From assembly GCA_030430365.1 (NCBI GenBank), contig JAUIFP010000004.1, positions 19,420 to 83,419 on the forward strand: DNA of 64,000 nt, given 5' to 3'. Under the pieces are notes generated by a model, which searched no databases, had not been told where the DNA came from, and saw nothing but the letters and a program-made list of their open reading frames with translations. The DNA comes from Alphaproteobacteria bacterium. Lineage in GTDB: Bacteria; Pseudomonadota; Alphaproteobacteria; Sphingomonadales; Sphingomonadaceae. Made by a program: the position numbers and the translations under genes. The number at the start of each line of letters is the position of its first letter. The stretch's first letter is position 1. Below, in pieces: positions 3,772 through 38,721 of the stretch.

Positions 3772-4269
3772 CTAGATGCTATAAACGTCGAGCAAGGTCG
3801 GCACGGTATCGTTCAAAAGCCGAATGACTTTCCCTGCAATCTTCCATTCGCCATCTTGCAGCACGAGTTCATGCTCGTAGCGGCCGAAATAGGCATGTGA
3901 ACGATTGACGCGAACGTCATGCGTATTCACGACGAAAGCGGAACTGAGCTTCATCCGGTCGTCCGAAGCTTCTTCCACCAACACTCCGCTGACCAGGTGG
4001 GAAACGCGCGGCAGGACTTCGGACGCAACCGAGAAACCGGAACGTATGCGCTGCAGGCGATCTTCCAGATTTTTCCGTCCACGATAATAGATCAGCGAAA
4101 GCTCCCGGTCGGGATCTTCCGTCTGTGTTCCGTCGTCCCGCCAAGCAGGCATCCAGAACAGGCACTCCCGGGTGAATAGCTCGATCCACGCATCGAACTC
4201 GCCCCGGTCGAGCAGCAAAGCCTCGCGGTAGAGAAATTCAGCCGCCTCTGAAGGAGACAGCGCGCTCAT
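3772..4269 (-). CDS. Aromatic-ring-hydroxylating dioxygenase beta (small) subunit
   Basis: AAEFLYREALLLDRGEFDAWIELFTRECLFWMPAWRDD...NRSHAYFGRYEHELVLQDGEWKIAGKVIRLLND. ATGA overlap with the alpha subunit stop. Confidence 0.88.
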   Translation of the reverse strand: MSALSPSEAAEFLYREALLLDRGEFDAWIELFTRECLFWMPAWRDDGTQTEDPDRELSLIYYRGRKNLEDRLQRIRSGFSVASEVLPRVSHLVSGVLVEEASDDRMKLSSAFVVNTHDVRVNRSHAYFGRYEHELVLQDGEWKIAGKVIRLLNDTVPTLLDVYSI

Positions 4270-5612
4270 GCCACGACCTCCTTCATTCGCTCTGCCCAGG
4301 CACGATAGTAACTCGCGAACAGGCTTTCGTCGCACAGCTGGGCATCGGCCAACACGCTGCGAGCCGGCTTGACGTCGATCATATCGGCATACTCATTTCC
4401 GCCCTCGACAGTGGCGGTCATGCCGCGCGCATGGCCCTGCAGCCACGGCCGCTCCTGCTCTGCCATGCCGAGCTGCGCCTCTTCGTAGCATACGGTGTCA
4501 TCGGGCGTCGCCATACCGGTCGGATTGAAGAAATCCTCATACTGGCGGATCCGGAAGCGGCGCGCTTCATCGCTTTCGCCTCGGGGGGCAATGCACCAGG
4601 TCTGCATCTCGGTCAGCCCGGCAGCAAGGGGTCTGATCACGCGCAATTGGCTCGATGCATTCTCCGCGATCTGCATATTGGGGAAGATCGTGAGATTACG
4701 CATGTTGAACATCCAGTTGCGCCTTGCCTCACCGAACTCTTCCGCAAGCTCTTCAGCCCGCTCGAAATCCGCGATTGCAGAGGACGGCGGCATAATCCCC
4801 CAGTTGAGTACGTGGCCATGGTCGAAGCTCATCGTACCGCCGGTGACGCCGCTGGCATTTTCAGTCCAGAAGTCGGAAGCCCCGATCGAAGACTTCACCA
4901 CTTCGTCGGCCTCTTCCTTTGCGCGCTGCTCGAGAATGCGAATGTAGCTCGGATGCGTGGAAGTGAAGTGATACTGGTCGGCGCAGTTTTCCAACTGCAT
5001 CTTCCAGTTCGCCGCATAGGTGAAGGTAACCCTGCCCGGCACGAGTTCGAGGCCGTTGGGGGCCTTGTCGGCCAACAGGTCGATCAGCTTGCTTGCCTCG
5101 CCAAGATGTTCTTCAAGCGAGGGTACATCGGGGTTGAGGCTGGCGAACAGGAAACCTCGATATTCGCCGAAGCGGGCAACTTCTGCGAGATCGTGGTTCT
5201 CGCTATCAAACGCCTCGCTATAGCATCCCCCCTTCTTCCACTTGATATTCTTGTTCGCGCCGGAACTGTCGAAGGTCCAGCCGTGATAGGGGCAAACGTG
5301 GCGGCGGGCATTGCCGCATTTCTTCTGCACCAGCCGCACGCCCTTGTGCGGGCAGGCATTTACGAAGCACTGCAATTCACCATCGCCATCGCGGCTGACG
5401 ATGATCGGCACGCGTCCAATGAAACCAGTGAAGAAATCATGCGGATGCTCTGCCTGGGTCGAAAGCCCGATGAACAACCACCCGCCTTCGAACACATGTT
5501 TCATTTCCATGTCGAACAGCTCCGGATCGCGGAACATCGCGCGATTGATCCGGAACACGCCGTCATCGGGACGGTCATCGACAAGGTCGCTTAGAGCGAA
5601 TTGCTTACTCAT
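4266..5612 (-). CDS. Rieske non-heme iron oxygenase alpha subunit
   Basis: Rieske motif CPH-X17-CPYH (CPHKGVRLVQKKCGNARRHVCPYHGW); mononuclear iron motif NCADQYHFTSTH (D-x2-H-x4-H). Confidence 0.93.
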   Translation of the reverse strand: MSKQFALSDLVDDRPDDGVFRINRAMFRDPELFDMEMKHVFEGGWLFIGLSTQAEHPHDFFTGFIGRVPIIVSRDGDGELQCFVNACPHKGVRLVQKKCGNARRHVCPYHGWTFDSSGANKNIKWKKGGCYSEAFDSENHDLAEVARFGEYRGFLFASLNPDVPSLEEHLGEASKLIDLLADKAPNGLELVPGRVTFTYAANWKMQLENCADQYHFTSTHPSYIRILEQRAKEEADEVVKSSIGASDFWTENASGVTGGTMSFDHGHVLNWGIMPPSSAIADFERAEELAEEFGEARRNWMFNMRNLTIFPNMQIAENASSQLRVIRPLAAGLTEMQTWCIAPRGESDEARRFRIRQYEDFFNPTGMATPDDTVCYEEAQLGMAEQERPWLQGHARGMTATVEGGNEYADMIDVKPARSVLADAQLCDESLFASYYRAWAERMKEVVA

Positions 5613-7093: not shown

Positions 7094-9658
7094 TTAGAAT
7101 TCCTTGCGCACAGTCAGCTTCCATTCACGAGGTGCAGCAACGCGGGTCTGCTGGTTAATCGAGCCCTCGAGCAGCTGGTAGTGGTAGTACTTGTCCGCGA
7201 GGTTCGTGACCTGAAGCGTTGCGCTCCAGTCCTCGTCAGGCGACTTGTAGACCAGCTGAGCATTCCAGATCGAATACGGATCGATAATGAATTGCGGCAA
7301 AGGTGCACGAGTGCTGGAAGAACGATCGAAGGTCTGCTTCGACTGCCAGTTCCAGTCCAGGCGCGGAGTAAACGTGCCGATTTCGGTGAAGATATCGTAC
7401 GAAACATTCGCATGCATGTTCCATTCCGGCTGGCGGAGGTTGCCTGGGAACAGATAACCCGGCTGCCCCGGTTCGGCACCGGATTCGAACTTGTTGTAAC
7501 CACCGGTCCAATCAAGCCTTAGCCCATCCACCGGCAGCGCCGTGATCTCCCATTCGAAGCCTTTGACTTCGGCCGGGATGCCAACATTGTTCGAATAGTT
7601 CGTTGGGACCGGATTGCCCGGGAACTGTTCGCAGGCAGCGACAGCTTCCGGCGTCTGGTATTGATAGTTAAACCAGGTGGCCGTGCCCGTTCCCGGCTCA
7701 TTGAGGCATTGCGTGCCAAATGCGCTGGAAGACAGCTTCTTATAGTCGAGATAGAATGCCGTCAGATTGGTCCGCAGACGACGGTCGAGAATGTCGGCTT
7801 TGACACCAACCTCATAACTGATCAACTCTTCGTCGGAGGTCGGCCTTAGCTGACGGTCGTTGAGGATGATCGTGGTCAAACCCGGAGGACGGGAGCCAGT
7901 TGCAGCCGTCGCGTAAACAAGAACGTCTTCATTGATCTTGTAGTCTGTCGAAATCAGCCAGTCCCAACGGTTCTGCGTAGCATTGACGGCCTCGTCTACG
8001 ATCACACCCGCATTGGGATTGTCGATCGTGATCGCAATGTTGGTGTGGCTATAGCGTCCACCACCCGAAATACGCCAACGGTCGGTGAGGTTGTAGTCCA
8101 GGTGAGCAAAGACCGACTGCGACTTGTTCACGCCATGCACGCTGTTGGTCTGCTGAATGTTGACGAAACTGATGTAGTTGTTCTGATACCCATCTGTTTC
8201 CACAGCAAACCCGCCGAGATTCCAGACAAGGCGATCATCGAGCAGCGTACCGTCAAAGCGTAGCTCACCCGACCACATCTCGTCCTTGTTCAGGAAGTGC
8301 GAAATGACAGCGCCAAGCGGGGACTGGTCACCATTCTGCGTGAACTCGTTGCTATACTTCGTATAGGCACCGATCGCCGTCATATTGATATTGTCGGCGA
8401 GCGAAGCTTCGAGTTTGCCTGAAAGCATAGTGTGATCCGCAAACTTGCGCGGTTCGTAGCAGACATTATCAGAATAATGATCCGGAAATGCCGTTGGGCT
8501 GCCGCCAGGTACCGATGACGGAATTTCAGCCGTCAAATCGATCTTCGGGCGGCAGTTAGTGGCATACGTATCGTAAATCCCGCCATCGCGTGCCGGCGTA
8601 ACGAAGCGATTGTCCAGGATCACGCCATAGACGTTATAGGCCGCGAGCTGGTAGACCTGAGCAAGCGCGGACGCTGTACAAGGCTGGGGCCCAATCCCAT
8701 CGGGATAGCCATCAACCGGCTGAACGCAGGTGCCTGTATAGCCATAGGTTACTTCAGGCGTTTCCTCGAGGTCCTCTTCACGGTGACGAGCCGTAAGGAG
8801 AAGCGAGACGTCGGAGCTCGGCTCCCACAGCAACTTGACCTGCCCTACCGCAGTCGTACCGCCTCCGGTATGCCCAATGACGCAGTCTTTCTGGCCTGAA
8901 TCGGGCTGAAAATATGGCAACGAGCCGGCAAGTTCCGGTGTACCGAGTTTGTCCATCATGCAGGTAAAGTCGAGACGATTGCCGAAACCACGCTGGCGGT
9001 CGAAATGGCCAAACGCGCGCACCGCAAGTGTCGGCGAAAGCCCTACATCGAGCGCACCAGCTGCCTCCATATGGTCACGTGAGCCGTATCCCAAGCTAAC
9101 GAAGCCCGAACCATCGCCCTTCGGATCCTGAGTGAACAGCTTGATCGAGCCGGCAATCGAAGCATTGCCCGAAAGCGTGCTCTGCGGCCCGCGATTGACT
9201 TCCACGCGCACAACGTCGGTGAAATCCAGCTCGGAACCGGCAGTTGTGGAATGGTAGACGCCATCGTTATAGATGGCGACAGCAGGCGGCACCGCCAGAC
9301 TGGACGTTTCGCCTTGCTGCACACCGCGTAGCGATATCCGCGGCGTACCTGCTGACTGTGAGTCACCCGGCACTGTCTGCAAGTTCGGAACGACCGAACC
9401 AAGCGTACCGATATTGGTGACGTTCGCAGCTTCCAACTGCTCTTCGGTTTGCGCCGTGATCGCGATCGGCGTGTCCTGGATGCTCTCCTCGACATAACGC
9501 GCCGTTACCACGATCTCGGCGATCCCGCCCCTCGATTGCGGAGCTTCATCTTGCGCCATGGCTGGCTGCGAAATCACTGCCAGTCCGGCAAGGCAGCTAC
9601 CCGAAAGCAAACGCCAAGCGGCTGCTCCGGAAATACCATTTCCTCCCCGTCGTACCAT
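7094..9658 (-). CDS. TonB-dependent receptor
   Basis: Start at MVRRGGNGISGAAAWRLLSGSCLAGLAVISQPAMAQDE (signal peptide). IAEIVVTARYVEESIQDTPIAITA TonB-box/plug, VRVEVNRGPQSTLSGNASIAGSIKL plug, terminal ...WKLTVRKEF. The ORF-track start at 9943 is too far upstream. Confidence 0.93.
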   Translation of the reverse strand: MVRRGGNGISGAAAWRLLSGSCLAGLAVISQPAMAQDEAPQSRGGIAEIVVTARYVEESIQDTPIAITAQTEEQLEAANVTNIGTLGSVVPNLQTVPGDSQSAGTPRISLRGVQQGETSSLAVPPAVAIYNDGVYHSTTAGSELDFTDVVRVEVNRGPQSTLSGNASIAGSIKLFTQDPKGDGSGFVSLGYGSRDHMEAAGALDVGLSPTLAVRAFGHFDRQRGFGNRLDFTCMMDKLGTPELAGSLPYFQPDSGQKDCVIGHTGGGTTAVGQVKLLWEPSSDVSLLLTARHREEDLEETPEVTYGYTGTCVQPVDGYPDGIGPQPCTASALAQVYQLAAYNVYGVILDNRFVTPARDGGIYDTYATNCRPKIDLTAEIPSSVPGGSPTAFPDHYSDNVCYEPRKFADHTMLSGKLEASLADNINMTAIGAYTKYSNEFTQNGDQSPLGAVISHFLNKDEMWSGELRFDGTLLDDRLVWNLGGFAVETDGYQNNYISFVNIQQTNSVHGVNKSQSVFAHLDYNLTDRWRISGGGRYSHTNIAITIDNPNAGVIVDEAVNATQNRWDWLISTDYKINEDVLVYATAATGSRPPGLTTIILNDRQLRPTSDEELISYEVGVKADILDRRLRTNLTAFYLDYKKLSSSAFGTQCLNEPGTGTATWFNYQYQTPEAVAACEQFPGNPVPTNYSNNVGIPAEVKGFEWEITALPVDGLRLDWTGGYNKFESGAEPGQPGYLFPGNLRQPEWNMHANVSYDIFTEIGTFTPRLDWNWQSKQTFDRSSSTRAPLPQFIIDPYSIWNAQLVYKSPDEDWSATLQVTNLADKYYHYQLLEGSINQQTRVAAPREWKLTVRKEF

Positions 9659-9769
9659 TTTTCTACCCTCTCTATTTCGAGCTCTATTACGTGTTTCTAC
9701 GCATCTCTGGTCGCCACAAATCAGACGTGACACCTGTGCGCTGCATGCCATGCGTGGAACCGCATAAAC

Positions 9770-9781
9770 ATAACATGATAA
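9770..9781. promoter_or_regulatory. Putative MarR-type operator (ATAACATGATAA)
   Basis: Matches the shared motif; upstream of the TonB receptor. Confidence 0.45.
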
Positions 9782-10391
9782 TAATCTCCTGCTTGTTACC
9801 GTGTCAACGCGACAACTGCCCTCATTTGAACTGGCGCCTTGTGAAGGTGAGAGGAACGAGTCCTGCAGTGTCATGCGTTCCGCAAGGGCAAAACTGCTAT
9901 ACATCAGATCAAAATAGCTGGATGGACCAGATGTGAAATTCACATCAAAAAGAGACTTTTTATCTAGTATTATTAGATAGTTATATCCATTTGCGTGAAA
10001 CCGGCTCGGCAGTCCCTATCGCGCAGCAATCGGATTTACCTACGCGCGGCAGACGTCGCAGAACGCATTTTTCGAGCTCGCATTTCATCACCTGATCACC
10101 CGAATTTACTTGCCGGATTGAAGCAAAATCCAAGCGCAAACGAGGCCGCGTGTTGCAAATCAGCCGCACATTTCGGGGCCAAAAATAACATCAAATACGT
10201 ATTATGTTCACTAGATGGCGGGGCAAAAATCCGTCGATACGGCATGTCGAGATTCGCACAGGATCGGTGATCGGGATGTGCCGAAGGCGGACCTGAACAA
10301 TCCGCGGCGTCTGGGCAGCTGACAAGATCGTTTCATGCCTCTGGGGCACCAGGCTCGACTGACGAAAAATGTCTATGGCGAACGCAATGAA

Positions 10392-10437: not shown

Positions 10438-11517
10438 CTAGTTGGCTGCGACGACAGGTAGCCCGAGCACTTTGGCCGGATTGTCTTTGAACATCGCCGT
10501 AAGTTCTTCTTCGGTGAAGCCTTCTTCGCGCAATACGCGAGCGGCAAGAACGAGTGCATCGGCGTGGTTATGCGAACCGATCAGGCCGCTATCCGTCGAG
10601 ACGATACAGTGTTCCGGACCGAGAGTTCTGATCGCCTTGACGACATCTTCACGCGTTCTACCGATCAGTTCCGTTGCTGTGACTTCCGCATAGGCGCCCA
10701 TTTGCGTGACCGCCTTCAATTGGTCGATCGTCGGATAAGTGAACATCGGCCCCATGCCCGGATGCGTTACGATGATGCGATCGATGCCCCGTTTCTTCGC
10801 CTCTTCGACAATTTGCACCATTTCGTGCGCGTAAACATGGCCAGTCGCGAGGGTGAGATCGTATTCCTTGATCAGGTCGAGAACTTCCAGCACCGCAGGA
10901 AGCAGGACTCCATCCTTGGATACGATCACATATGGGCGCTGCTCCTTGAGATATTTTACCTCATGTTCGGAGTCGTGCGTCGGCATCCAGACGACTTTGC
11001 CGTAGTGGCCTTCCACTTCGGCAAAATACCGGACGGCTTGCGGATTGATGCCGCCGACAGTGGCATTGAGGGCAAGACCGCCGAACACTTGCATGCCCGG
11101 CACCTCGTCATACTTCCTGACCAGGTTGGCAAGGCCGGCGGTACCGGTCCAATGGTTCTTGAACACGACCCCGCGCAGGCCCCGCTCACGCGCTAGTTTC
11201 GCGATTTCGAAAGCGTCCCACTGGCGATCGTACACATCCGGCCCATAATGCGCATGAACATCGATCGCCCCATCCAGGATAGGGTCATCCAGATGCTGAT
11301 CCACGGAGGGTTCGGTGAACCTTCCGCGATAGGAAAGCCATGCATTGAGATCCTTGTTGACCGATGGATTCACCACGGTTGCCGGTGCCGGCATCCAGGT
11401 AATCTCTGGATCGGAAGTTTCGGTTTCACCCGCAACGACAGGCGAGGCTGCAAATCCGGCAGCAAGAGCAATGCCGGACAACCCGATGACACATTCCTTC
11501 ACACGCTTTGAAAACAT
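10438..11517 (-). CDS. Amidohydrolase superfamily protein (DUF6282-like) with predicted signal peptide
   Basis: MFSKRVKECVIGLSGIALAAGFAASPVVAGE signal. Metal-ligand pattern DVHAHYGPDV, TGHVYAHEM, VTHPGMG, STDSG. Confidence 0.8.
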   Translation of the reverse strand: MFSKRVKECVIGLSGIALAAGFAASPVVAGETETSDPEITWMPAPATVVNPSVNKDLNAWLSYRGRFTEPSVDQHLDDPILDGAIDVHAHYGPDVYDRQWDAFEIAKLARERGLRGVVFKNHWTGTAGLANLVRKYDEVPGMQVFGGLALNATVGGINPQAVRYFAEVEGHYGKVVWMPTHDSEHEVKYLKEQRPYVIVSKDGVLLPAVLEVLDLIKEYDLTLATGHVYAHEMVQIVEEAKKRGIDRIIVTHPGMGPMFTYPTIDQLKAVTQMGAYAEVTATELIGRTREDVVKAIRTLGPEHCIVSTDSGLIGSHNHADALVLAARVLREEGFTEEELTAMFKDNPAKVLGLPVVAAN

Positions 11518-11608
11518 TCCTGACCTCTCCTTCTTTGCCTTTTTCCAAGCCGGCTTCGCGGCAATCGAAACTCGCAAGCTCGTTGACTCGGCCTACGCAG
11601 AAACATAC

Positions 11609-12614: not shown

Positions 12615-12768
12615 CGCTGGCATTGCGCGAGGCCGTGAGCGATTTGCACGGCTTCGCGCCCACCGACGCCAGATTTGGCTCACGGAACGTCATACTGGCA
12701 ACGCATGACCCGAAAACGGGCAAGCCAAGACACAATTTCGAGGATGCGGGAAAGGATTGCGGCCCGAT

Positions 12769-13545
12769 ATGGATTTGGAGCTCGCCGGCAAATCTGTGCT
12801 GATTACAGGTGGCGCAAGCGGAATCGGCTATGCGTCCGCTGCAGCCTTCGCCCGCGAAGGCGCGCGTATCGCCATTCTCGACTGGAATACAGACACACTC
12901 GCCCGAGCGGAAACAGTCATCGCCGAAATGGGCACGCAAGTGCTGGCACGCCAGGTCGACGTGTCCAAGGCCGATCAGGTCGCTGCAGCTCATGCCGATG
13001 TCATCGAAGCCTTCGGTTCCATTGACGTCGCATTCAACAATGCCGGCATTGGGGCCGATTTCACATCGATCGAAGACGTCAGCGAGGATGTGTGGGACCG
13101 GATCATGGCCGTCAATTTGAAGGGCATCTTTCTTTGCATGCGCGCCCAACTGCGGCACATGCGGCCTCGCGGTACCGGATCGATCGTGAACACGACGTCC
13201 AACGTCGCGTTCGTTGGAGCCCCCGGAGCAGCCGTCTATGCTGCGAGCAAGCAAGGCATTGTCGGCATGACCCGCTCGGCCGCGCTTGAAGTGGCGGACA
13301 CCGATATTCGCATAAATTGCATCGCTCCCGGCGCGATAAACACGTCGATCGGCAAGTCAGCTGGGCGCAAGGCGGAGCCGCGCGATGCCCCCTACCCCGA
13401 TGCGATCATCCGCAAAGGGCTGCCGATCGGGCGTTTCGGAGAGCCGGAGGAAGTCGCCGATGCGGTCGTCTGGCTGGCAAGCCGGCGCGCTGGTCTGGCC
13501 CTGGGCGAGACACTGGTCATGGATGGCGGGTTTATCGCGCAATGA
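12769..13545 (+). CDS. SDR family oxidoreductase
   Basis: LAGKSVLITGGASGIGYASA...NNAG...YAASKQG...ALGETLVMDGGF. Confidence 0.9.
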   Translation: MDLELAGKSVLITGGASGIGYASAAAFAREGARIAILDWNTDTLARAETVIAEMGTQVLARQVDVSKADQVAAAHADVIEAFGSIDVAFNNAGIGADFTSIEDVSEDVWDRIMAVNLKGIFLCMRAQLRHMRPRGTGSIVNTTSNVAFVGAPGAAVYAASKQGIVGMTRSAALEVADTDIRINCIAPGAINTSIGKSAGRKAEPRDAPYPDAIIRKGLPIGRFGEPEEVADAVVWLASRRAGLALGETLVMDGGFIAQ

Positions 13546-13693
13546 ACTACATGGACGGATGTTGCCGCCACCCCTCTGAGCGGCCTGCCGCTGCTCAACA
13601 CTCGTTTACTTGGACAGAGCCTGTTCTACCGGTTCGAACTCAACACCACACGTGCCGGTTGGCGCGATCAGATTTTATGGGAAGGAAAGACGC

Positions 13694-14266
13694 ATGCGTA
13701 CGAAATTGAAGCGGCTCCCGCCGATGAAGGACGAAGAACTCAACGAGCAGCAAGAGGAAGTCATAGCGCCATTCCGCGAGGTAGGCGCCGATTTCAACGT
13801 CTCTCGCGCCTTCATCCGGCACCCGCGCGCGCTTGCCGCTTTCCGGGTCTGGGCGACCTACGTGATGATCGACAAGAACGATCTTGAAGAACGTGAACGC
13901 GAAATCGTGGCCATGCGAACGGCATGGCGCATCAGGGCACCCTATGTCTGGGCCCGCCATATCTCATACGGCGAAAAGGCAGGGCTGAGCGCGGAGGAAA
14001 TGGAAGGCCTCAAGCGCCCGATCGAAGATCGCAACTGGAGCGCGGCCGACATCGCCCTGATCAAGACTGCCGACGCTCTGGTCGACAAGTTCTTCGTGCC
14101 CGATGACGTGTGGGAAGAACTCTCAGCCCATTTCAACGACAAGCAATGCATGGACGCAATCTTCTGTTGCGGCCATTTCTGCCTGCTCGGAATGTTCCTG
14201 AATACTGCGGATACGCCGCTTGACGGCGACGTACCGCATGATCCCGACTTCGACGTCGTTGCCTGA
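13694..14266 (+). CDS. Carboxymuconolactone decarboxylase family protein
   Basis: MRTKLKRLPPMKDEELNEQQEEV...REIVAMRTAWRIRAPYVWARHISYGEKAGLSAEEMEGLK. Confidence 0.8.
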   Translation: MRTKLKRLPPMKDEELNEQQEEVIAPFREVGADFNVSRAFIRHPRALAAFRVWATYVMIDKNDLEEREREIVAMRTAWRIRAPYVWARHISYGEKAGLSAEEMEGLKRPIEDRNWSAADIALIKTADALVDKFFVPDDVWEELSAHFNDKQCMDAIFCCGHFCLLGMFLNTADTPLDGDVPHDPDFDVVA

Positions 14267-14268
14267 CC

Positions 14269-15297
14269 TTATCCCCTCCGGAGGGCGGCCTTGGTCGTCC
14301 CCGAGGGGCCATCATTGATGACATTCAGCGAGCTGCCCGGCGGCATGAGTTCGTCGATCCGGTCAAGCGTCTCATCGGACAGTTTGACGTCCAGCGCCGG
14401 AAGCAGGCTTTCCAGGTGATCCATCTTGCGCGGCCCGAGAATGGCCGCAGTCACCGCTGGATGCTGGATGACGAATGCCACTGCCATTTGTGCCAGCGTG
14501 ATGCCGTTTTCCTCTGCCAGATCGGACAGCTCCCCGACGATGCGCAGCTTGTTGCGGATTGCATCTGTATGCGGATCGAACGCCTTGCCAGTAATCCGGC
14601 CGAAAAATGCCATGCGGTTCTCACCCTCAAGATCCTCCGGCTTGCGATATCTGCCTGAGAGGTATCCGCCATCGAGCGGGCTGAAGGTAATCGCCCCCAT
14701 GCCATACCGCTTGCAGGCGGGAAGCACGAAGCGTTCGATATGTCGATTGAATATCGAATAATGGGACTGGTCGCAGCGGAAGCGGCCGAAACCCATCTTC
14801 TCTGAAATCCAGTGAGATTCAACGATGCGGTCGGCAGGAAGGCTCGAACATCCGAACTGACGGATCTTGCCCTGGCGGACCAGTTCTGTGAGCGTGAAGA
14901 GCACCTCTTCCAGCTCAACCGTGTCGTCGAAACGGTGGTACTGATACAGGTCGATATAGTCGGTACCCAGCCGCCGAAGGCTATCTTCGACCGCACGCAC
15001 GATCCAGCGCCGCGATCCCCCGCGCATATTCGGATCGTCTCCCATTCCGGCGAAGAACTTGGTCGCAACCACCAGATTGTCGCGCTTGCCCTTGATTGCC
15101 TTGCCGACAATTTCTTCAGACTCTCCGCGCGAATAGCCGTCCGCAGTGTCGATGAAATTGATCCCGGCATCGATCGCCCGGTCGATAATACGCACGCAAT
15201 CGTCATGGTCTGGATTGCCGATATTCCCCAGCATCATCGTCCCGAGACAGAAGGGACTGACCTGCATTCCAGTGCCGCCAAGCGTGCGCATTTCCAT
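14269..15297 (-). CDS. Aldo/keto reductase
   Basis: MEMRTLGGTGMQVSPFCLGTMMLGN...INFIDTADGYSRGESEEIVGKAIKGKRDNLVVATKF. Confidence 0.92.
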   Translation of the reverse strand: MEMRTLGGTGMQVSPFCLGTMMLGNIGNPDHDDCVRIIDRAIDAGINFIDTADGYSRGESEEIVGKAIKGKRDNLVVATKFFAGMGDDPNMRGGSRRWIVRAVEDSLRRLGTDYIDLYQYHRFDDTVELEEVLFTLTELVRQGKIRQFGCSSLPADRIVESHWISEKMGFGRFRCDQSHYSIFNRHIERFVLPACKRYGMGAITFSPLDGGYLSGRYRKPEDLEGENRMAFFGRITGKAFDPHTDAIRNKLRIVGELSDLAEENGITLAQMAVAFVIQHPAVTAAILGPRKMDHLESLLPALDVKLSDETLDRIDELMPPGSSLNVINDGPSGTTKAALRRG

Positions 15298-15309: not shown

Positions 15310-16716
15310 CTAGAGTTTGCGTGTCAGAGGTCCGGTTTCCGCATCGGCCTTGGCAACGCCAATGAGCTGGAACTTCGGTTCGGTATATGGGATGTCTCCG
15401 TAGGCAGCGCGGCGGATGAACCGCCAACCTTCGGGCGTGCGCCGTAACCGGTCGTCATAATGGCCATGATGCATTACAACCGGCTCGTCGTTCTCGCCGC
15501 GCATGATGTGCTGCCATTTGCAGGTCGCTCTGGCCGTATCGCCATTGAGGTCGATGAGCACGTCCAGCGTGGTGTGATGCGTGCGATGCCCTTCGCTCTC
15601 CCAGGGCTTGCAGTATTGGCTGAGCAGTTCCGTGATCGCTGCCGGACCGACCGCGCGCCCGACGATGCCAGCCCACTCGCCATCCTCAGTAAAGGCGTTT
15701 CCGTATCCCACCAGGTCACGGGTATCGAGGCAGTTCGAGGTCTCGATGCAGTGACGCGTGATCGCCTCGCGGTCTTCCATATCCTTAAGCCGCTGCTCAA
15801 TCTCATCCAGGCGCGTACGCTTAGGCTCCTCGAGCGGCGAATGGCCGAACATGCGCGTGATATCGTGCCGCGCGATCTTCCAGGCGCCGTCCTCTCGCAC
15901 GAGATCGTCAAAATAGCGGCCGCCCTGCAGGATCGAGGGCATGCCGTCCTGGTCGGATGTCAGATAGTACCAGACCACTTCGGCCTTTGCCGTATCGCCG
16001 TCGAGCTGAATGTCGTGATTGTTCAGGACATGAATGGCGGGCGCTTGCCCGTCCCGGAGCTCCGGTGCGCGAGCCTTATCCAGCAATTCCTCGATCGCCT
16101 TAGGGCCGATCGCATCGCCTAGCTGAGCGGCGAGCACGCCTTCTTTCGCGAAGAGGCTCGCATAGCCAGCATGATCGCCGCGATCGAGATACTTGGCATA
16201 GTCGGCGAAGATCTGGCGGATCGCCTCGCGGTCGTCCATCTCGCGCTTGACCGCGTCGAGCCGGGTGGGCTCCGGCGGTTCCATCTGGGCGCGCCCCATG
16301 ATCCGGCTGATACGGTGATGCGCGATCTTCCACACCCCATCCTCGCGCACCAGATCGTCATTGTAGCGGCCCATCTGATACACGCTGGGGACCTTGTCGG
16401 CATCGATGCTGAGATAGCTCCAGATCACCTCTGTCGTCGCCGTATCGCCGCTGAGCTGGATATCCTGATTGGTGATGAGGTGGATCGCATCGTTGAAGAT
16501 GCCGCGGCTGCGCGCTGCATCTACCCGTTCGCCATATTGGCGCATATGCTCCGCGATGGCTTCGGGGCCGACAGCATCGCCGAACTTGCCTTCGCGCGAG
16601 AAGAGCTTCGCATAGGCCTCGTAATCGGCACCATCGAGATAGCTCGCATAGTCCACGAATAACTGCCGGATCGCTTCGCGATCCTCGAGCTCCTGCAAAC
16701 GCGCTTGGTCAGACAT
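15310..16716 (-). CDS. Triple-domain SnoaL-like (NTF2 superfamily) protein
   Basis: Three internal repeats of DREAIRQxFxDYxxYLDxxDxxxYAxLFxxEG...HxIxNxDIQLxGDTAxxEVxWxYL...GRYxDDLVREDGxWKIAxHxIxRxxG. Confidence 0.85.
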   Translation of the reverse strand: MSDQARLQELEDREAIRQLFVDYASYLDGADYEAYAKLFSREGKFGDAVGPEAIAEHMRQYGERVDAARSRGIFNDAIHLITNQDIQLSGDTATTEVIWSYLSIDADKVPSVYQMGRYNDDLVREDGVWKIAHHRISRIMGRAQMEPPEPTRLDAVKREMDDREAIRQIFADYAKYLDRGDHAGYASLFAKEGVLAAQLGDAIGPKAIEELLDKARAPELRDGQAPAIHVLNNHDIQLDGDTAKAEVVWYYLTSDQDGMPSILQGGRYFDDLVREDGAWKIARHDITRMFGHSPLEEPKRTRLDEIEQRLKDMEDREAITRHCIETSNCLDTRDLVGYGNAFTEDGEWAGIVGRAVGPAAITELLSQYCKPWESEGHRTHHTTLDVLIDLNGDTARATCKWQHIMRGENDEPVVMHHGHYDDRLRRTPEGWRFIRRAAYGDIPYTEPKFQLIGVAKADAETGPLTRKL

Positions 16717-16791: not shown

Positions 16792-18402
16792 TCAGCGCGT
16801 GAACTTGAATCCTGCGTAGTCTGCATCGGTGACTTCCTTGCAGCGCTCGCGAAACTTGTGGAGCCCACCCAGCCAGATCAGGAACCGCCTAGGCTTGCCC
16901 GGAACATTCGATCCGAACTGCCAGCTGTCGGCCTCGGTAAAGACCGAATTGACCGCCTTGGTCTGCGTTTCTTCAGTCCACTCGTCCTCCGCTTCCTGGG
17001 TGGGCTCGACCACCGCGAAGCCTTCCTTCTCGCAATGCTCGATCAAATCCGCGATCCATTCGACATCGTGCTCGATCGAGGCTGGAACGTTGGTCGAAAG
17101 GGCCGGATTGCATGGGCCGCTGATCGCCAGCAGATTGGGGAAGCCGGCAAAGCTCATCCCCAGATAGGCACGCGGGCCATCTTCAAGCCGTTCCGCCAGT
17201 TTGATGCCGCCCCGCCCGCGAATGTCCATCTTGCGGAAAGGCCCGGTAACCGCGTCATAGCCAGTGGCCAGCACCAGGATGTCGATGGGATATTCCTTGC
17301 CTCCCACCATCACCCCCGTCTCGGTGAAATTGGTGATCGGCGTCTTCTTCACATTGACGACATCGACGTGCGGGAGGTTGAAAGTTTCGTAATAGTTGGT
17401 GTCGAGCGCGATACGTTTGGCCCCCATCGGATAACCCTTGGGCTCCAAGATCTCGGCCTTGACCGGATCCTTGACGATACTGCGCACCTTTTCGCGGAAG
17501 AAGTTCTCGGTGAATTCGCGCGTGGCGGGGTCCTGCGTCCCTTCCTTGAAGAGCTGGATTACGCGCAAGCCGCCATTGTTCCAGTATTCCTCCTGCAGAC
17601 GCTCCGCCTCGTCCAGGCTCACCTCCTTGAAGGAATAGGCAGGCGCGTCATAGGGCTGCCCGCCCCAATGAGAGCGCACCTTTTCCTTGATTTCAGGATA
17701 GTTGGCCTTGACCTCTTCGACATATTCTTCGGACAGGGGATGGTTCTTGGCCGGCATGATATAAGCCGGCGTGCGCTGGAATACGGTAAGATGCTTTGCA
17801 GTCTTGGCGATCTCTGGAACGGCCTGAATCCCGGTTGATCCGGTGCCGATCACCCCAACCCGCTTGCCGCTGAAATCGACCCCTTCCTTGGGCCAATTGC
17901 CGGTATGATACCATTCACCCTTGAAATCCTCGATCCCCGGAATGTTCGGCAGGTTGGTCGCAGTCGAAGTGAGGCCGCCAATTGCAGTCACGACATATCG
18001 GGCGGTGGCCTTTTCCCCGGTCGAGGCTTCGACAGTCCAGCGCTTCGTTTCCTCGTCATAGACTGCCGAAGTGACCCGCGAATTGAAGGTCATGTCCTTG
18101 CGCAGGTCGAGCCGGTCCGTCACGAAATTGAGGTATCGTTCTATCTCCGGTTGAGCCGGGAAGCGTTCGGACCAAGTCCATTCCTGCAGGATCTCGTCCG
18201 AGAAGAAGAAGCAGTAGAAATAGCTCTCTGAATCGCAGCGCGCACCGGGATAGCGGTTCCAGTACCAGGCGCCGCCCACGCCTTCCCCGGCTTCGAAAAC
18301 ACGTGTCCTCAGCCCCATCTCTCGCAGCTTGTGGAGCATATATATCCCTGAAAATCCGGCGCCGATGACAATGGCATCGAGCTCCTCTGCGGATTTGGTC
18401 AC
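16792..18402 (-). CDS. Flavin-containing / Baeyer-Villiger-type monooxygenase
   Basis: VIGAGFSGIYMLHKL FAD motif; BVMO fingerprint FKGEWYHTGNWP; VIGTGSTGIQAVPEIAK NADP motif. Good SD (AGGAGG) before a GTG start. Confidence 0.9.
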   Translation of the reverse strand: MTKSAEELDAIVIGAGFSGIYMLHKLREMGLRTRVFEAGEGVGGAWYWNRYPGARCDSESYFYCFFFSDEILQEWTWSERFPAQPEIERYLNFVTDRLDLRKDMTFNSRVTSAVYDEETKRWTVEASTGEKATARYVVTAIGGLTSTATNLPNIPGIEDFKGEWYHTGNWPKEGVDFSGKRVGVIGTGSTGIQAVPEIAKTAKHLTVFQRTPAYIMPAKNHPLSEEYVEEVKANYPEIKEKVRSHWGGQPYDAPAYSFKEVSLDEAERLQEEYWNNGGLRVIQLFKEGTQDPATREFTENFFREKVRSIVKDPVKAEILEPKGYPMGAKRIALDTNYYETFNLPHVDVVNVKKTPITNFTETGVMVGGKEYPIDILVLATGYDAVTGPFRKMDIRGRGGIKLAERLEDGPRAYLGMSFAGFPNLLAISGPCNPALSTNVPASIEHDVEWIADLIEHCEKEGFAVVEPTQEAEDEWTEETQTKAVNSVFTEADSWQFGSNVPGKPRRFLIWLGGLHKFRERCKEVTDADYAGFKFTR

Positions 18403-18668: not shown

Positions 18669-20612
18669 TCATCTGACCTCGAGATCATCCCAATCGGGAT
18701 GCCTCATCTGACCCCAGATCTCGTAGCCGGTGAAAGGCGTTTGAGAGACTGTGCGGCCATACTCACTCCACCAGTAATTGTTCGCGCGCGGGTCCGCCCA
18801 GATCTTCCTGGCGTTCCCTTCGTCGACAATCCTGTTGTAGCGCCAATAGGCGTCTTCCTTCACCTCGACCGCATGTTTGTCATCAAGGATCAGCTTCTCC
18901 AGGCACTGCAGGATATAGCGCATGGTGACTTCGTGATATTGGGATACCGGCAACCCGCCATTCGTATTGGGCCCGTAAAGCATCCACAAATTGGGGAAGC
19001 CGGGCACCATGCAGCCCAGATAGGCGCGTGCGCCCTCGTCGGCCCACATATCCTCCAGCGTCTGTCCGTTTTCGCCCGTGACCGTCATCGGGAACAGGAA
19101 GTCATGCGCCTTGAAGCCCGTCGCGAACACGATCACGTCGACGTCGTGCTGCGCTCCATCACCGTCCACGATGCCGCTACCGGTTATTCGCTCGATACCG
19201 CTGGTGACCAGCGTGACATTGTCCTGCAACAGCGAGTCCAGAACGCAATCGTCGGGATCCACCGCCACCGGGCGTGAAGACCATGGCGGATGTTCCGGGG
19301 TCATGATGTCGACCAACTCGGGATCCTGGAGCTTGCTTTCGAGGAATTCGATGCAACGCTCCCGCGCGATCTTGTTGCCTGCGCTGCATGTATTCGGATC
19401 GTCGAAATCCGGATCGACATCGAACACTTTCGTGAAATCGGGGCCGACCCCATAGGACATCTTGAAGCGCATGAAGTTGGTGTGGAAGGGCAGGTTCCTG
19501 TCCAGCCAGAGTATCTGCGGAGCCACTTTCGCCTGATAGCCCGGGGTCGGGAAAATCCATTGCGGTGTGCGCTGGAATACCACGAGCTCGGTGCCTTCCA
19601 TTTTGGCAAGCTCGGGGATCAGCTGATAACCTGTGCACCCCGTACCGATCACGGCAATGCGCTTACCCTTCATATCGGCATCGTCGGGCCAGCGCGCAGT
19701 ATGCCATGACTGCCCCTGAAATTCGTCCATTCCCGGGATATTCGGAATATTCGGCCGGTTGAGGAAACCTACACCGCTGATCACGGCATTGGAGCGCAGC
19801 GTCTGCGGCCCATCCGGCCCGTCGGTGCGGATTTCCCACAAGGAATCCGCCTCGTTCCAGGTCATCGAGCTGACCTCTGTATTGAAGGTGATGCCGCTGC
19901 GAAGATCGAACGTGTCCGCGACCCAGTCGTAATATTTCTGGTTCTCGCCGTAGGTCCCGTAAGTGTAGGGATACGGGAAATCGACACCGAACAGGTTGGT
20001 GTATCCGCGGCTGGGCGTATCCACGCGCGCGCCGGGATAGCGGTTTTCGTGCCAAGTGCCGCCAACGCCCGAGTTCTTCTCGATCACATTGTACTTGATG
20101 CCGGCGCGCTTCAATTGGATCGCGGAATTTAGTCCGCCCATGCCGGCGCCGATGATTGTGACAGTGAAATCCTCGAGCTTCTCGGGATCGGGTTTTCCCT
20201 GCCATTCGAGCGACCGCGCCCATGGCTCCAGCGCAGTTTCCTCCATCATCAACTCTCGCGCCTCGTCCTTGATCGTGGTTCCCACGATCAGGTCCAGGCT
20301 TTCCGGCAGACGTTCCCGCGGGCCGTAACCAATATGGCCAGCGCCGGATTCGCGGTATGACTTCAGGAATTCGGCAGCTTTGCGCCTGACCATGGCGGCT
20401 TCTTCATCACTTGCAGGCGCAGGCGTTTCCGCCCGCCCCATGCGCACCATCTTCAGCTTCATCGAACGGAGCTCGGGATCGCCGGTCAGCTGATAAAGCA
20501 AACCGCGGAGCACCATGGGATCCGCGTAGCTGACAGCATCTTCAATCGTCTCGTCACTTGCCGCGAGCAATTCCGGCCGCGCAGGCCGTGTGTTCGCTTC
20601 AATTGTCGCCAT
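18669..20612 (-). CDS. Baeyer-Villiger monooxygenase with N-terminal extension (4-hydroxyacetophenone monooxygenase-like)
   Basis: IIGAGMGGLNSAIQLKRAGI, FQGQSWHTARWP, VIGTGCTGYQLIPELAK; roughly 150-residue N-terminal extension. Start placed at MATIEANTRP. Confidence 0.88.
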   Translation of the reverse strand: MATIEANTRPARPELLAASDETIEDAVSYADPMVLRGLLYQLTGDPELRSMKLKMVRMGRAETPAPASDEEAAMVRRKAAEFLKSYRESGAGHIGYGPRERLPESLDLIVGTTIKDEARELMMEETALEPWARSLEWQGKPDPEKLEDFTVTIIGAGMGGLNSAIQLKRAGIKYNVIEKNSGVGGTWHENRYPGARVDTPSRGYTNLFGVDFPYPYTYGTYGENQKYYDWVADTFDLRSGITFNTEVSSMTWNEADSLWEIRTDGPDGPQTLRSNAVISGVGFLNRPNIPNIPGMDEFQGQSWHTARWPDDADMKGKRIAVIGTGCTGYQLIPELAKMEGTELVVFQRTPQWIFPTPGYQAKVAPQILWLDRNLPFHTNFMRFKMSYGVGPDFTKVFDVDPDFDDPNTCSAGNKIARERCIEFLESKLQDPELVDIMTPEHPPWSSRPVAVDPDDCVLDSLLQDNVTLVTSGIERITGSGIVDGDGAQHDVDVIVFATGFKAHDFLFPMTVTGENGQTLEDMWADEGARAYLGCMVPGFPNLWMLYGPNTNGGLPVSQYHEVTMRYILQCLEKLILDDKHAVEVKEDAYWRYNRIVDEGNARKIWADPRANNYWWSEYGRTVSQTPFTGYEIWGQMRHPDWDDLEVR

Positions 20613-20655
20613 TCTGAACCTTCCCAACTCCTCTCCGGAACTCAAGTTGGTCCGG

Positions 20656-20667
20656 TTAACATGATAA
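20656..20667. promoter_or_regulatory. Putative MarR-type operator (TTAACATGATAA)
   Basis: 44 nt upstream of the BVMO start; best match to the shared motif. Confidence 0.55.
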
Positions 20668-20734
20668 GTAGTTTTGCAGCAATAGCGATTCTCGTGCAAT
20701 TCTGCCGCCCTGCCTGGATGAAGAACGACCCGGC

Positions 20735-26251: not shown

Positions 26252-27193
26252 TCAGTCGTCCAGACCGAGCAAAGCGATCGGATTGAGCGAGATCATCTTG
26301 CGGATGTCTTCGTCCGAATAGCCAAGCTCGAGACACGCCTTGATCACGTTGCGGAAGCCCTGCACCGGATGGTCGTTGCCCTTCTGACCAAGGTCCGAAG
26401 CCAAAATGGTGTTATCGACACCGGCAGACTTGATCATCGCGTCGAGCTCCGACGGACCGACCGGCGGATCGCGATCACGGGCATCCGACCGCACGAACAT
26501 GCACAGCGAATGCTCGATATAAGCCCCCAGTTCGGAGACGAAGTTGTGGATGTCATCGAGCGAGGCATCCAGGATGAAGTTCGGATGATTGACCAGCAGG
26601 CGTTTCACGCCGCGCTTCTTCGCTTCGCGGAATACAGCGAAAATCTCGGACACATGCATGTGCCCGCCCGAAAGAATGAGATCATGCTCGGCGACCATGT
26701 CGAGGATCTCTTTCACCTCGTCCTTCACTTCCCCGAGCTCATCCAGCGGGGTGAGCGGTTCGAAGGGGATCATTTTCCGGATCGTATGCGGAAAGCCCGC
26801 CTTGATCCCGAAAGGTGAATCGATGTGGTTCTTCGATGAGAAGGTCGGCATCCACACCAGCTTGGCGCCCAGCGCGACACCGTGGTCGACTGCATGCTTG
26901 TTGAAGCCGCCAACCGAATTGTTGAGCGGCACGCCCGAAAACATCGTCACATTCAAGTGACCATGCGTCTCGTTAAGCAATTCGGTGATCGGCGTTGCCG
27001 AATAATAGTGATCCTTCACCAGGACCGCGCGAAAGCCTGCATCCGCGGCTTCCTGCATCGCTTCCAGGTGATTGAGATCGCGCGCCATGCATGACGGGCC
27101 GGAGTGGCAATGCATGTCGACTGCCCCCACAAGCAGCCGCGATACGTGATCTTCCAGCGCTTCGCCGGTTGGAACATCTGTTGTCGTAGCCAT
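26252..27193 (-). CDS. Amidohydrolase superfamily protein (DUF6282-like), cytosolic
   Basis: AVDMHCHSGPSC, LSGGHMHVSEI, LVNHPNFI, ASDLG; paralogous to 10438-11517 but lacking a signal peptide. Confidence 0.8.
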   Translation of the reverse strand: MATTTDVPTGEALEDHVSRLLVGAVDMHCHSGPSCMARDLNHLEAMQEAADAGFRAVLVKDHYYSATPITELLNETHGHLNVTMFSGVPLNNSVGGFNKHAVDHGVALGAKLVWMPTFSSKNHIDSPFGIKAGFPHTIRKMIPFEPLTPLDELGEVKDEVKEILDMVAEHDLILSGGHMHVSEIFAVFREAKKRGVKRLLVNHPNFILDASLDDIHNFVSELGAYIEHSLCMFVRSDARDRDPPVGPSELDAMIKSAGVDNTILASDLGQKGNDHPVQGFRNVIKACLELGYSDEDIRKMISLNPIALLGLDD

Positions 27194-27250
27194 TTCATCC
27201 TCACATTCCGCGGCCCTCATGGGTTGGGCCGCATTGAAACTCTTCCCGCC

Positions 27251-27739
27251 TTACCAGGCAGGATTCTCGGCCGGAGATTCTCCGGAGATTTCGTTGTAGA
27301 TTTTGCGCGAAGTGAACCGCCAACCGTCGGGCGTTCGGGCCAGTTCGTCTTCATAGAGACCGTAGGCCGGGATATAGGGCCAGCGCGGCTGGTTATCGTT
27401 GCTGAGGTCGAACCAGTAAGCGACTGCCCGGGCGCGGTCGCCCTGCACTTCGATCACCCGATTGGCCAGGAAATGCCTTAGCCGCGCCGGTTTTGCCGGA
27501 GCGTCGGCTTCATCCCGTTTGCGCACGAATTCCCGCATTCTGGCGCAAGCGGCCTGGATGTTTGCGCGGCCTTCGGCATGGCCTTCGGGCCAGGACAAGA
27601 CAGCCTCTTCTGTGAAGACGGACCCGTAAGTTTCCGCGTCCTGCCAGTCGAGCGCATACATGTAGCGGCTCTGCAATTCGCCGATCTCCATCTTGTCGAT
27701 CATGTCCTGCAAGGCCGCAGGATCCGGCTGCCCGCTCAA
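27251..27739 (-). CDS. SnoaL-like (NTF2 superfamily) protein
   Basis: MIDKMEIGELQSRYMYALDWQDAETYGSVFTEEAVLSWPEGHAEGRANI...EDELARTPDGWRFTSRKIYNE. Confidence 0.82.
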   Translation of the reverse strand: MSGQPDPAALQDMIDKMEIGELQSRYMYALDWQDAETYGSVFTEEAVLSWPEGHAEGRANIQAACARMREFVRKRDEADAPAKPARLRHFLANRVIEVQGDRARAVAYWFDLSNDNQPRWPYIPAYGLYEDELARTPDGWRFTSRKIYNEISGESPAENPAW

Positions 27740-28988: not shown

Positions 28989-30467
28989 TCAGCTCAGTTT
29001 TGTAGGTGCTTCGTCGACCAGAATGGTCTTGGTTTCAAGATAGTGCATGAGGCCTTGGGCCCCGCCCTCGCGTCCGATCCCGGACTGCTTGAAGCCGCCG
29101 AAGGGAAGCGAGAAATCGTTTCGCATGCCGTTCTGGCCCACATTGCCGGTGCGAATGCGCCGGGCAACGCGCCATGCCGCATCCTTGTCATGCGTCAGGA
29201 CAGAGCCGTTCAGGCCGTAATTGCTCTCATTGGCAATGCGGATCGCGTCTTGTTCGTCATCGCAGGGGATCAGGCTCAAAACAGGGCCGAAGATCTCCTC
29301 CTGGGCGATCTGCATTTCGTTATCGACATTGGCGAACAAGGTGGGCTCCATGAAGTAGCCTTGGTTCATCTGGCTGGGACGGCCACCGCCGGTTACCAGG
29401 TCGGCACCGGCCGACTGGCCTGCCTGGATATAGCTCTCCACGCGGTCGAGCTGACGCTTCATGGCAAGCGGCCCCATCTGCGCTTCCGGATCGTTGGAAT
29501 AGCCAAGCTGCGTGCCCTTCATCACTCCGGCGATTGCGTCCGCCAGTTCGTCATGCCGTGCCCGCGGGACAATCGCACGGGTCAGCATGGCGCAGACCTG
29601 ACCGCTCACCAGCGTGATCGCGCCGCCCAGAATATTGGCTGCTTCCTCGATCGGCATGTCGTCCATGACTACCGCCGCCGACTTGCCGCCCAGTTCGAGC
29701 GTGCAGCGCGCGATACGGCTGCCGCAAACCTCGGCAATACGCTTACCCGCCAGGGTCGAACCGGTGAAGCTCACCTTGTCTACGCCGGGATTGTTGACGA
29801 GATGATCGGAAGCTTCGCGCTCACCGGGCACCAGGTTGATCACACCGGCGGGAAGCCCGGCTTCTTCTGCGCATTCCGCAATGATGTAGCCTTCAAGCGG
29901 CGTTTCCGGCGACGGCTTCATGATTACCGCGCAACCCGACAGGAGCGACGGCGCCAGCTTTGCGCACATGATCATGTAGGGCACATTCCAGGGCGCAATC
30001 GCCGCCACAACGCCGACAGGCTCATGCACGATATAGGCGTGCGGCGAATTATCGGATTTGGCTTCTTTGATGAAATCGAACTTCTTGCCCAGCGCGATTG
30101 CGTCTTCGAGATTCATCGTGCCGCGTTCGGTCAGATAGGGAGCCGTCGATTGCAGGCCGCCCATCTGGAGCGACCATGCCTCGGCCAATTCGGGATGCCG
30201 CCGGCGCAATGCCGCCACCAGCCGCTCCATCGCCTCGATCCGTTCGCCGGGGCTCATCCAGGGCCAAGGCCCATTGTCGAACGCCTCGCGCGCCGCTGCG
30301 ACTGCAAGATCCATATCCTTCGCGTCCGCTTCTGCCACGTGTCCGGCGACTTGCTCGGTGTCGGGCGAAACGATCGTGAGTTGGCGGCCCGAATTGGGCT
30401 TCACCCATTCACCGCCGATAAACAGGCGGTCGGGGTGCTTGAGTTGCGGCATTTTGTACTCGCTCAT
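28989..30467 (-). CDS. Aldehyde dehydrogenase family protein
   Basis: CTLELGGKSAAVVMDD, LVSGQVCAMLTRAIVPRARHDE, EEIFGPVLSLIP. Start placed at MSEYKMPQLKHPDRLF. Confidence 0.92.
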   Translation of the reverse strand: MSEYKMPQLKHPDRLFIGGEWVKPNSGRQLTIVSPDTEQVAGHVAEADAKDMDLAVAAAREAFDNGPWPWMSPGERIEAMERLVAALRRRHPELAEAWSLQMGGLQSTAPYLTERGTMNLEDAIALGKKFDFIKEAKSDNSPHAYIVHEPVGVVAAIAPWNVPYMIMCAKLAPSLLSGCAVIMKPSPETPLEGYIIAECAEEAGLPAGVINLVPGEREASDHLVNNPGVDKVSFTGSTLAGKRIAEVCGSRIARCTLELGGKSAAVVMDDMPIEEAANILGGAITLVSGQVCAMLTRAIVPRARHDELADAIAGVMKGTQLGYSNDPEAQMGPLAMKRQLDRVESYIQAGQSAGADLVTGGGRPSQMNQGYFMEPTLFANVDNEMQIAQEEIFGPVLSLIPCDDEQDAIRIANESNYGLNGSVLTHDKDAAWRVARRIRTGNVGQNGMRNDFSLPFGGFKQSGIGREGGAQGLMHYLETKTILVDEAPTKLS

Positions 30468-30645
30468 GCGAATGCTCCCAGCGGAAAGAGTTGATAGTGA
30501 ATGAGGTCGGCCTGCTGCACGCAGAGAACCGGAAGCTTGTTCATGCCCTTCTCCCTGCATCGAGTGCCGATGCATATTGTCCGCCGCGCAGGAATTGAGC
30601 GGCGTCTGATTGCATGGGCTGATCGGCCCATCTCCGCCAGATAGA

Positions 30646-30657
30646 TTAACTTGATAA
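30646..30657. promoter_or_regulatory. Putative MarR-type operator (TTAACTTGATAA)
   Basis: Between divergent ALDH (minus) and NHL-repeat gene (plus). Confidence 0.45.
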
Positions 30658-30876
30658 ATATTCTGGGGCAACAGAGATTCTTAGGCTACTAATAAGGTAA
30701 CGAATCGCCCGTGTGCGAGGTGATGGCTTGATACCGGTCGCAGACACCGGCTGGCTTCCGTTAGATAGCATGCTATGTACGGCAGCTCTGCAAGCCGCGG
30801 CTCGTCGAAACGGGAAAGGCGGCAATCAAGCCGCAGGCAATTGGCGGCGGAGGCAACCGCTGCAAGGAGAGATCAA

Positions 30877-37563: not shown

Positions 37564-38721
37564 CTAGCGGCTGTAAATACGCGCACCGTCCTCAAGGGAA
37601 TTTCCTGGATTGAGAACAACATTTTCGCCTTCGGAGAGGCCTTCGATCACTTCTGCGAATGCATCATTCATGTGATCGATAGTCACGGCGCGCTCGCGGG
37701 CTCGCCCGCCATCGACAACGAACACCCGCCAACCGCTATCGTCACCGCGAAACAGGGCACCGATCGGCACGCGAAGTGCGTCAGGCTTGCTCCACAGGAT
37801 AATAGTGGCATCGATTTGATAGCCGTGGCCGAGCCGGGCGGCCTGTTTCTTCGCCTCGCCGGTGAAATCGATGATGACGTTGACCCTCTGCTCTTCGATG
37901 CCGAGCGCGGATATCTTGAGGCGGCCGAACGGTTCTATCCGTTCGACCTCTCCGACCAGCGGATCCGGGCCGCCCCATTGGGTAACTTCGACCCGGTCAC
38001 CCGGTTTCACCCGCACAGCTTCGCGAGACAGCAGGTCCACGACCATTTCGATCCGGCTTGGGTCGCCAATTGTCATCAGCGGCGTGCCTTCGGCCACCAC
38101 GCCTTCGCTTTCGACAATACGTGACAGTACCGAACCGCCCGTGGGTGCCCGCACCGGGACCGGCGTGCCCGATCCTGTCCCGCCGGGCTGAGTGAGCATG
38201 GCGCGTATGCGGGCGACTTCCGCGCGGCTTTGCGACAGTGCAGCCTGGCCGGTCGCCGCTCGGGTGCGCGCCGCCTCGAGCTGTGCCGTCGAGAGGAAAC
38301 CGCGATCTGCAAGTTCCTCGGCCCGTGCAAGATCATTTCTGGCCTGCGTGAGAGAGGCCTCCGCGCTTTTCGAGGCGGCCTGCGCCGATGCCAGTGCGCC
38401 GCGCAGCTCCTGCCGCGTACGGGCATCGAGCGGCGTGGCAGGCCGCCCCGACATCCGGGTAATCAACGTCCCCTCGGCAATTCGATCCCCGGCTTCAAGC
38501 TCGATCCGTGAGAGGTATCCAGTCACGGGGGCGGAAACGACGTAATATTCCTCCGCCCGGGTGACACCGTCATCCGTTACGCCGACCGACATCGGGCCGA
38601 CCGACACCTGACCGGTATCGACTGCAGTCGATGTCGGCCAGAAGGCATAGGCAAGCCCCAGCAGCACGATTGCTGCCGTCAGCAGGGCCCAGCGCCAGTG
38701 TTTGACCTTTTCCCAAATCAT
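37564..38721 (-). CDS. HlyD/RND-type periplasmic adaptor protein
   Basis: [29 protein letters not shown] anchor; coiled-coil hairpin; VTGYLSRIELEAGDRIAEGTLI lipoyl-like domain. Confidence 0.85.
   Translation of the reverse strand: MIWEKVKHWRWALLTAAIVLLGLAYAFWPTSTAVDTGQVSVGPMSVGVTDDGVTRAEEYYVVSAPVTGYLSRIELEAGDRIAEGTLITRMSGRPATPLDARTRQELRGALASAQAASKSAEASLTQARNDLARAEELADRGFLSTAQLEAARTRAATGQAALSQSRAEVARIRAMLTQPGGTGSGTPVPVRAPTGGSVLSRIVESEGVVAEGTPLMTIGDPSRIEMVVDLLSREAVRVKPGDRVEVTQWGGPDPLVGEVERIEPFGRLKISALGIEEQRVNVIIDFTGEAKKQAARLGHGYQIDATIILWSKPDALRVPIGALFRGDDSGWRVFVVDGGRARERAVTIDHMNDAFAEVIEGLSEGENVVLNPGNSLEDGARIYSR

Follow-up and report, generated by a model that had tools for sequence, protein, structure and literature searches.

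The iota-carbonic anhydrase Bn86287 of Bigelowiella natans carries three NTF2-like domains; in three-domain enzymes of this kind the domains work independently, the third Bn86287 domain alone being as active as the whole protein, and for prokaryotes the authors report only single-domain forms of this family, COG4337 (PMC8132391). In the lasalocid epoxide hydrolase Lsd19, two domains catalyse different, successive steps. MonBI and MonBII are separate proteins that cooperate, MonBI being inactive alone but boosting MonBII (PMC8827043). The bile-acid 7-alpha-dehydratase BaiE crystallises as a trimer (PMC13101464), and the gamma-formaldehyde lyase LdpA of sphingomonads, to which PcfL is related (PMC11323797), combines one SnoaL domain with a C-terminal extension and acts in aromatic catabolism.

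Here we describe a gene of the Sphingomonadaceae that encodes three complete, tandem SnoaL_4 (NTF2-like) domains. It lies in a 64,000-nucleotide stretch of DNA (the window) from assembly GCA_030430365.1, the source genome, hereafter G000. The fusion of two SnoaL lineages in this gene is real, rare and conserved, but proteins combining two or three domains of this fold were known before. A first-pass annotation of the window had called the covalent trimer unusual, which overstates the case given the three NTF2-like domains of Bn86287 (PMC8132391), the two of Lsd19 (PMC8827043) and at least two other multi-SnoaL fusions in the same bacterial family.

Results

Domain layout and predicted fold

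The triple SnoaL gene occupies positions 15310–16716 on the minus strand, the open reading frame having earlier been given without a strand, and starts with an ATG immediately preceded by a Shine-Dalgarno-like GGAGAG. Its 468-residue product matches Pfam SnoaL_4 (PF13577) over three stretches, with a whole-protein E-value of 1.9e-69 and 231.9 bits against a curated cut-off of 24. The N-terminus reads MSDQARLQELEDREAI; because no signal peptide is seen, the protein is probably cytoplasmic. Domain 1 (D1) comprises residues 5–150 (16267–16704), domain 2 (D2) residues 155–300 (15817–16254) and domain 3 (D3) residues 305–455 (15352–15804), all on the minus strand. The three repeated blocks quoted by the first-pass annotation are present exactly as given, and its observation that D1 and D2 are much closer to each other than to D3 holds as well: D1 and D2 are identical in 77 of 149 columns (52%), versus 39 of 127 (31%) for D1 and D3 and 47 of 142 (33%) for D2 and D3, with BLOSUM62 scores that lie 71, 24 and 34 standard deviations, respectively, above those of 1000 shuffles. 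D1 lacks four residues in its first beta hairpin.

In an AlphaFold2 model of the full chain, an approach that the same annotation had proposed, the NTF2-type set of helices and strands recurs three times (mean pLDDT 68), each time running helix-helix-strand-helix followed by four long strands, with one short strand missing from D1 at its four-residue deletion. D1 modelled alone reached a pLDDT of 65, its first hairpin not being modelled. We assign a cone-shaped alpha+beta NTF2-type fold to each repeat with moderate confidence only, because the alignment of four sequences supplied to AlphaFold2 is shallow; the pTM of 0.38 means that the full-chain model conveys no interdomain geometry or domain arrangement.

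A foldseek search with the model ranked the three-domain iota-carbonic anhydrase first, followed by Rv3472, Lsd19, MonBI/II and LdpA. The top match, to Bn86287 (PDB 7c5x), has an E-value of 2.6e-12 and an overall TM of 0.22, and is therefore a match domain by domain. Both proteins carry three tandem NTF2-like domains on one chain and share a metal-free nature, predicted in the case of the triple protein; however, Bn86287 is eukaryotic and belongs to a different sequence family, COG4337, and we rejected membership of that family for the triple protein, as no iota-carbonic anhydrase occurs among its sequence matches and the resemblance is one of fold. Lsd19 (PDB 3rga) likewise joins NTF2-like domains on one chain, its counterparts MonBI and MonBII (PDB 9kw6) being separate, but it has two domains, serves polyether biosynthesis in Streptomyces and showed no sequence similarity; Lsd19/MonB-type epoxide hydrolases are absent from the sequence matches, and membership was again rejected, the similarity lying in the fold.

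Solved relatives with known activity include LdpA, BaiE and LinA. Among solved structures, LdpA (PDB 8abt, 8abv), itself SnoaL-like, scores best in sequence comparison with the full protein (E = 1.5e-7), at ~26% identity. The match covers only residues 14–166 of the 251 in LdpA, and of the three domains only D2 has a counterpart (H234) to H97 of LdpA, the position being Q84 in D1 and V386 in D3, so that we do not place the triple protein in the LdpA/PcfL group. LinA (PDB 3a76) and BaiE (PDB 4l8o) share the fold but are single-domain proteins, and D1–D3 are 17–21% identical to LinA.

Distribution and origin of the fusion

Full-length three-domain orthologs were found in four further genomes, at 96% (G003, locus L003), 60% (G178), 60% (G451) and 63% (G475) identity, none with an internal stop. 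The G003 contig appears to be record JAUHYZ010000002.1, and the G178 assembly is of high quality (100% completeness, 20 contigs). Since intact, full-length copies thus occur in five genomes of two genera, G000 included, a sequencing or assembly error, which the first-pass annotation had named as a possible source of the fusion, is ruled out. No further three-domain match appeared in samples of 401 genomes from the order, 401 from the family and 94 from one genus, nor in 387 genomes sampled from the class and 399 from the phylum, where scoring was confined to the best few candidates of each genome; the architecture is therefore rare and, as far as sampled, limited to two genera of one family. 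One candidate from the class sample (G673) was discarded, as it consists merely of adjacent single-domain frames.

A tree built from 115 SnoaL domains united the D1 and D2 copies from the five proteins in one clade (SH-aLRT 100) free of single-domain genes, and gathered D3 into a second clade together with six stand-alone genes (SH-aLRT 100). A tree of 47 domains gave supports (UFBoot/SH-aLRT) of 93/94 for D1 with D2 and 100/99 for D3 with the stand-alone genes. D3 is ~47–55% identical to these single-domain genes versus 31–33% to D1 and D2, and, unlike D1 and D2, has the C-terminal EPK(F/Y)Q(L/M) tail of these genes. A tree forcing D1, D2 and D3 together, the grouping implied by the stepwise duplication proposed earlier, was rejected by an AU test (p = 0.012, a value that is not blind, the first tree having already been seen). 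Because of these clade supports and the AU result, we read D1 and D2 as tandem duplicates and D3 as a separate SnoaL lineage joined to the pair; duplication thus stands for D1 and D2, and stepwise triplication from a single ancestor is rejected for D3. Separating D3, as a clade, from the stand-alone genes gave p = 0.30, and these genes could therefore be offspring of D3; D3 would have come from, or given rise to, their separate lineage.

A stand-alone D3-type gene, 47–55% identical to D3, is present in all five fusion genomes: in G000, G003 and G178 it lies on a contig other than that of the fusion, and in G475 and G451 it follows the fusion directly downstream, G451 having a second copy. None was found, at the thresholds used, in the sampled genomes that lack the fusion. 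In G178 this gene adjoins a Baeyer-Villiger monooxygenase gene whose product is 59% identical to that encoded at 18669–20699 of the window. Because of the co-occurrence and this neighbour, a correlation in few genomes, the data suggest that the fusion and the stand-alone D3-type gene share a pathway or complex.

Homologs with one, two and three domains, for which a search had been proposed, were all found, as stand-alone genes, two-domain fusions and three-domain orthologs. The G000 genome holds 39 SnoaL_4 matches, a large expansion for a 3.0 Mb assembly that is 79% complete, many of them clustered on contig C37; two further two-domain open reading frames lie on contigs C114 (locus L060) and C37. 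Two-domain proteins also occur in G103 (L038) and in G932, G990 and G1015 (L085–L087). Like the triple protein, those of C114, G103, G932, G990 and G1015 carry tandem SnoaL_4 domains on one chain; they differ from it in having two domains, in deriving from other SnoaL lineages (C114 and G103, in the 115-domain tree) and in having a signal-peptide-like start (L086 and L087, of G990 and G1015).

Runs of separate genes were also observed. In G311 (L036, 1411–3034), three adjacent SnoaL genes, each with a signal-peptide-like start and with overlapping ends, lie beside and after an aldo-keto reductase gene; in G451 (L059, 7674–10295), four or five adjacent SnoaL genes lie beside an aldo-keto reductase gene. 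The first domain of the C114 and G103 fusions groups with the first L036 gene, and their second domain shares a larger clade with the second L036 gene. Because these fused domains track separate L036 genes, joining of SnoaL domains has occurred more than once in this bacterial family. The window itself contains two more single-domain SnoaL_4 genes, at 27251–27739 and 59265–59813, of other lineages than the triple gene.

Putative active sites and selection

Residues D25 and H73, the catalytic dyad of LinA, align with D28/H79 in D1, D178/H229 in D2 and D331/H381 in D3 (the LinA sequence was checked against PDB 3a76), and all three Asp-His pairs are invariant in the five orthologs. The domain-wise comparison that had been proposed for the active sites thus finds the pair in every domain and a difference at the position of LinA R129, which is an invariant histidine in D1 (H134) and D2 (H284) and an arginine in D3 only (R436, likewise invariant in the five orthologs). 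Between G000 and G003, dN/dS is 0.058 for D1, 0.051 for D2 and 0.027 for D3, and in more distant ortholog pairs it ranges from 0.17 to 0.41. Because dN/dS is low in D1, D2 and D3, all three domains are judged to be under purifying selection and none to be decaying.

Genomic context

The triple gene is flanked on its own strand by an aldo-keto reductase gene (14269–15297, minus), 12 bp downstream, and by a gene for a type I Baeyer-Villiger monooxygenase of the phenylacetone/steroid monooxygenase type (16792–18402, minus), 75 bp upstream; because of these short gaps and the shared strand, the three genes likely form an operon. The closest solved structure to the reductase is 9wk1, 'DON 3-epimerase chain D' (E = 9.5e-89), and the closest relatives of the monooxygenase are phenylacetone monooxygenase (E = 6e-173) and steroid monooxygenase (E = 1e-163). 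These relatives point to ketones on ring compounds as the business of the cluster.

A second Baeyer-Villiger monooxygenase, with an N-terminal extension of ~170 residues, is encoded at 18669–20699 (minus). On the other side lie genes for a short-chain dehydrogenase (SDR; 12757–13545, plus) and a carboxymuconolactone decarboxylase-family (CMD-type) protein (13610–14266, plus), both likewise retained in the vicinity of the fusion in G003, G178 and G451. Farther out are genes for a Rieske ring-hydroxylating oxygenase (3772–5612, minus; beta subunit 3772–4335, alpha subunit 4266–5612), present in the same region in G178 and G451 (67–82%), a TonB-dependent outer-membrane receptor (7094–9943, minus), a homolog of which (61%) also lies close to the fusion in G178, and an aldehyde dehydrogenase (28989–30671, minus), whose homologs in G451 and G475 (76%) lie inside the corresponding cluster. 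Both G178 and G451 retain, in the surroundings of the triple gene, the aldo-keto reductase, the two Baeyer-Villiger monooxygenases, the SDR, the CMD-type protein and the Rieske oxygenase, as well as an EthD-domain protein and a MarR regulator; the short contig of G475 carries the monooxygenases, the aldehyde dehydrogenase and the aldo-keto reductase. The placement of the triple gene beside Baeyer-Villiger monooxygenase and aldo-keto reductase genes is thus kept in two genera. No described pathway with these genes was found in the literature, and an anti-phage role was set aside, there being no PADLOC match.

Two DUF6282 proteins, encoded at 10438–11577 and 26252–27220, flank the catabolic cluster on both sides. 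Elsewhere in the window, two open reading frames of 787 and 828 residues overlap on opposite strands (38718–41081, minus; 38892–41378, plus); the plus-strand frame has no Pfam match, and the pair is probably one real gene with an antisense open frame.

Discussion

The explanation to which we give an even chance is that the triple protein is a cytoplasmic, cofactor-free acid-base enzyme that has active sites of two kinds, acts as a dehydratase, lyase or isomerase, and works within a ring-compound degradation cluster. Each of D1, D2 and D3 would then hold a working pocket; D1 and D2 would share a reaction, and that of D3 would be related to it or come next, the chemistry being dehydration, elimination or double-bond isomerisation of hydroxylated or ketonic intermediates. 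Such an enzyme would work alongside the monooxygenases, on steps that are related or follow one another, and linking the domains would fix their stoichiometry and keep the intermediate local. We favour a division of labour between D1/D2 and D3 like that of Lsd19, by analogy, because D3 appears to be of separate origin and has a different invariant residue at a pocket position. Several points count against this explanation: the Asp-His pattern, common across the superfamily, is no proof of catalysis, the domains of three-domain iota-carbonic anhydrases are equal and independent with no division of labour, the model (pTM 0.38) is without interdomain geometry, and the equivalent of LdpA H97 is confined to D2.

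The domains might instead form a tied oligomer in which only one class is catalytic and the rest stabilise the assembly or help to build its pocket, the part that MonBI plays for MonBII; the fusion would then stand in for SnoaL subunits that were encoded by separate genes and formed a hetero-oligomer. The runs of separate SnoaL genes by an aldo-keto reductase gene (three in G311, four or five in G451) fit this idea, as do the finding of the stand-alone D3-type gene only in fusion genomes, where it abuts the fusion in G451 and G475, and the behaviour of MonBI, inactive alone yet boosting MonBII (PMC8827043). A purely structural domain would, however, be expected to lose its catalytic residues, whereas all three domains retain the Asp-His pair at low dN/dS, and we regard a tied oligomer as rather unlikely. 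That the dyad is found in every domain also suits an enzyme with three equivalent, independent sites acting on the same substrate, in effect an increase in gene dosage, for which the full activity of the third Bn86287 domain alone is a precedent among iota-carbonic anhydrases (PMC8132391); yet D3 is of a different lineage, has R436 where D1 and D2 have H134 and H284, and ends in a different tail, which makes equivalence of the three sites unlikely. Non-catalytic members do exist among NTF2-like folds (PMC3924330), and a binder or carrier of hydrophobic pathway intermediates would follow their example, but the conserved catalytic-type dyads and the placement among catabolic enzymes render such a role highly improbable.

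Extending the preferred reading of an acid-base enzyme with two kinds of site, one may picture a two-lineage, three-site bacterial enzyme in which the duplicated D1/D2 was combined with a captured gene of D3 type. Such a chain would catalyse two or three steps in succession without a cofactor, with the stand-alone D3-type protein as obligate partner, in an undescribed ring-degradation pathway linked to Baeyer-Villiger oxidation. This fuller picture is speculative, and we consider it rather doubtful in its entirety.

The triple gene offers a clean natural case in which single-domain enzymes became multi-site through duplication and gene joining. Because unfused relatives persist in the same and in related genomes, the benefit of fusion is open to experiment, and the conserved cluster around the gene marks a predicted ring-degradation pathway.
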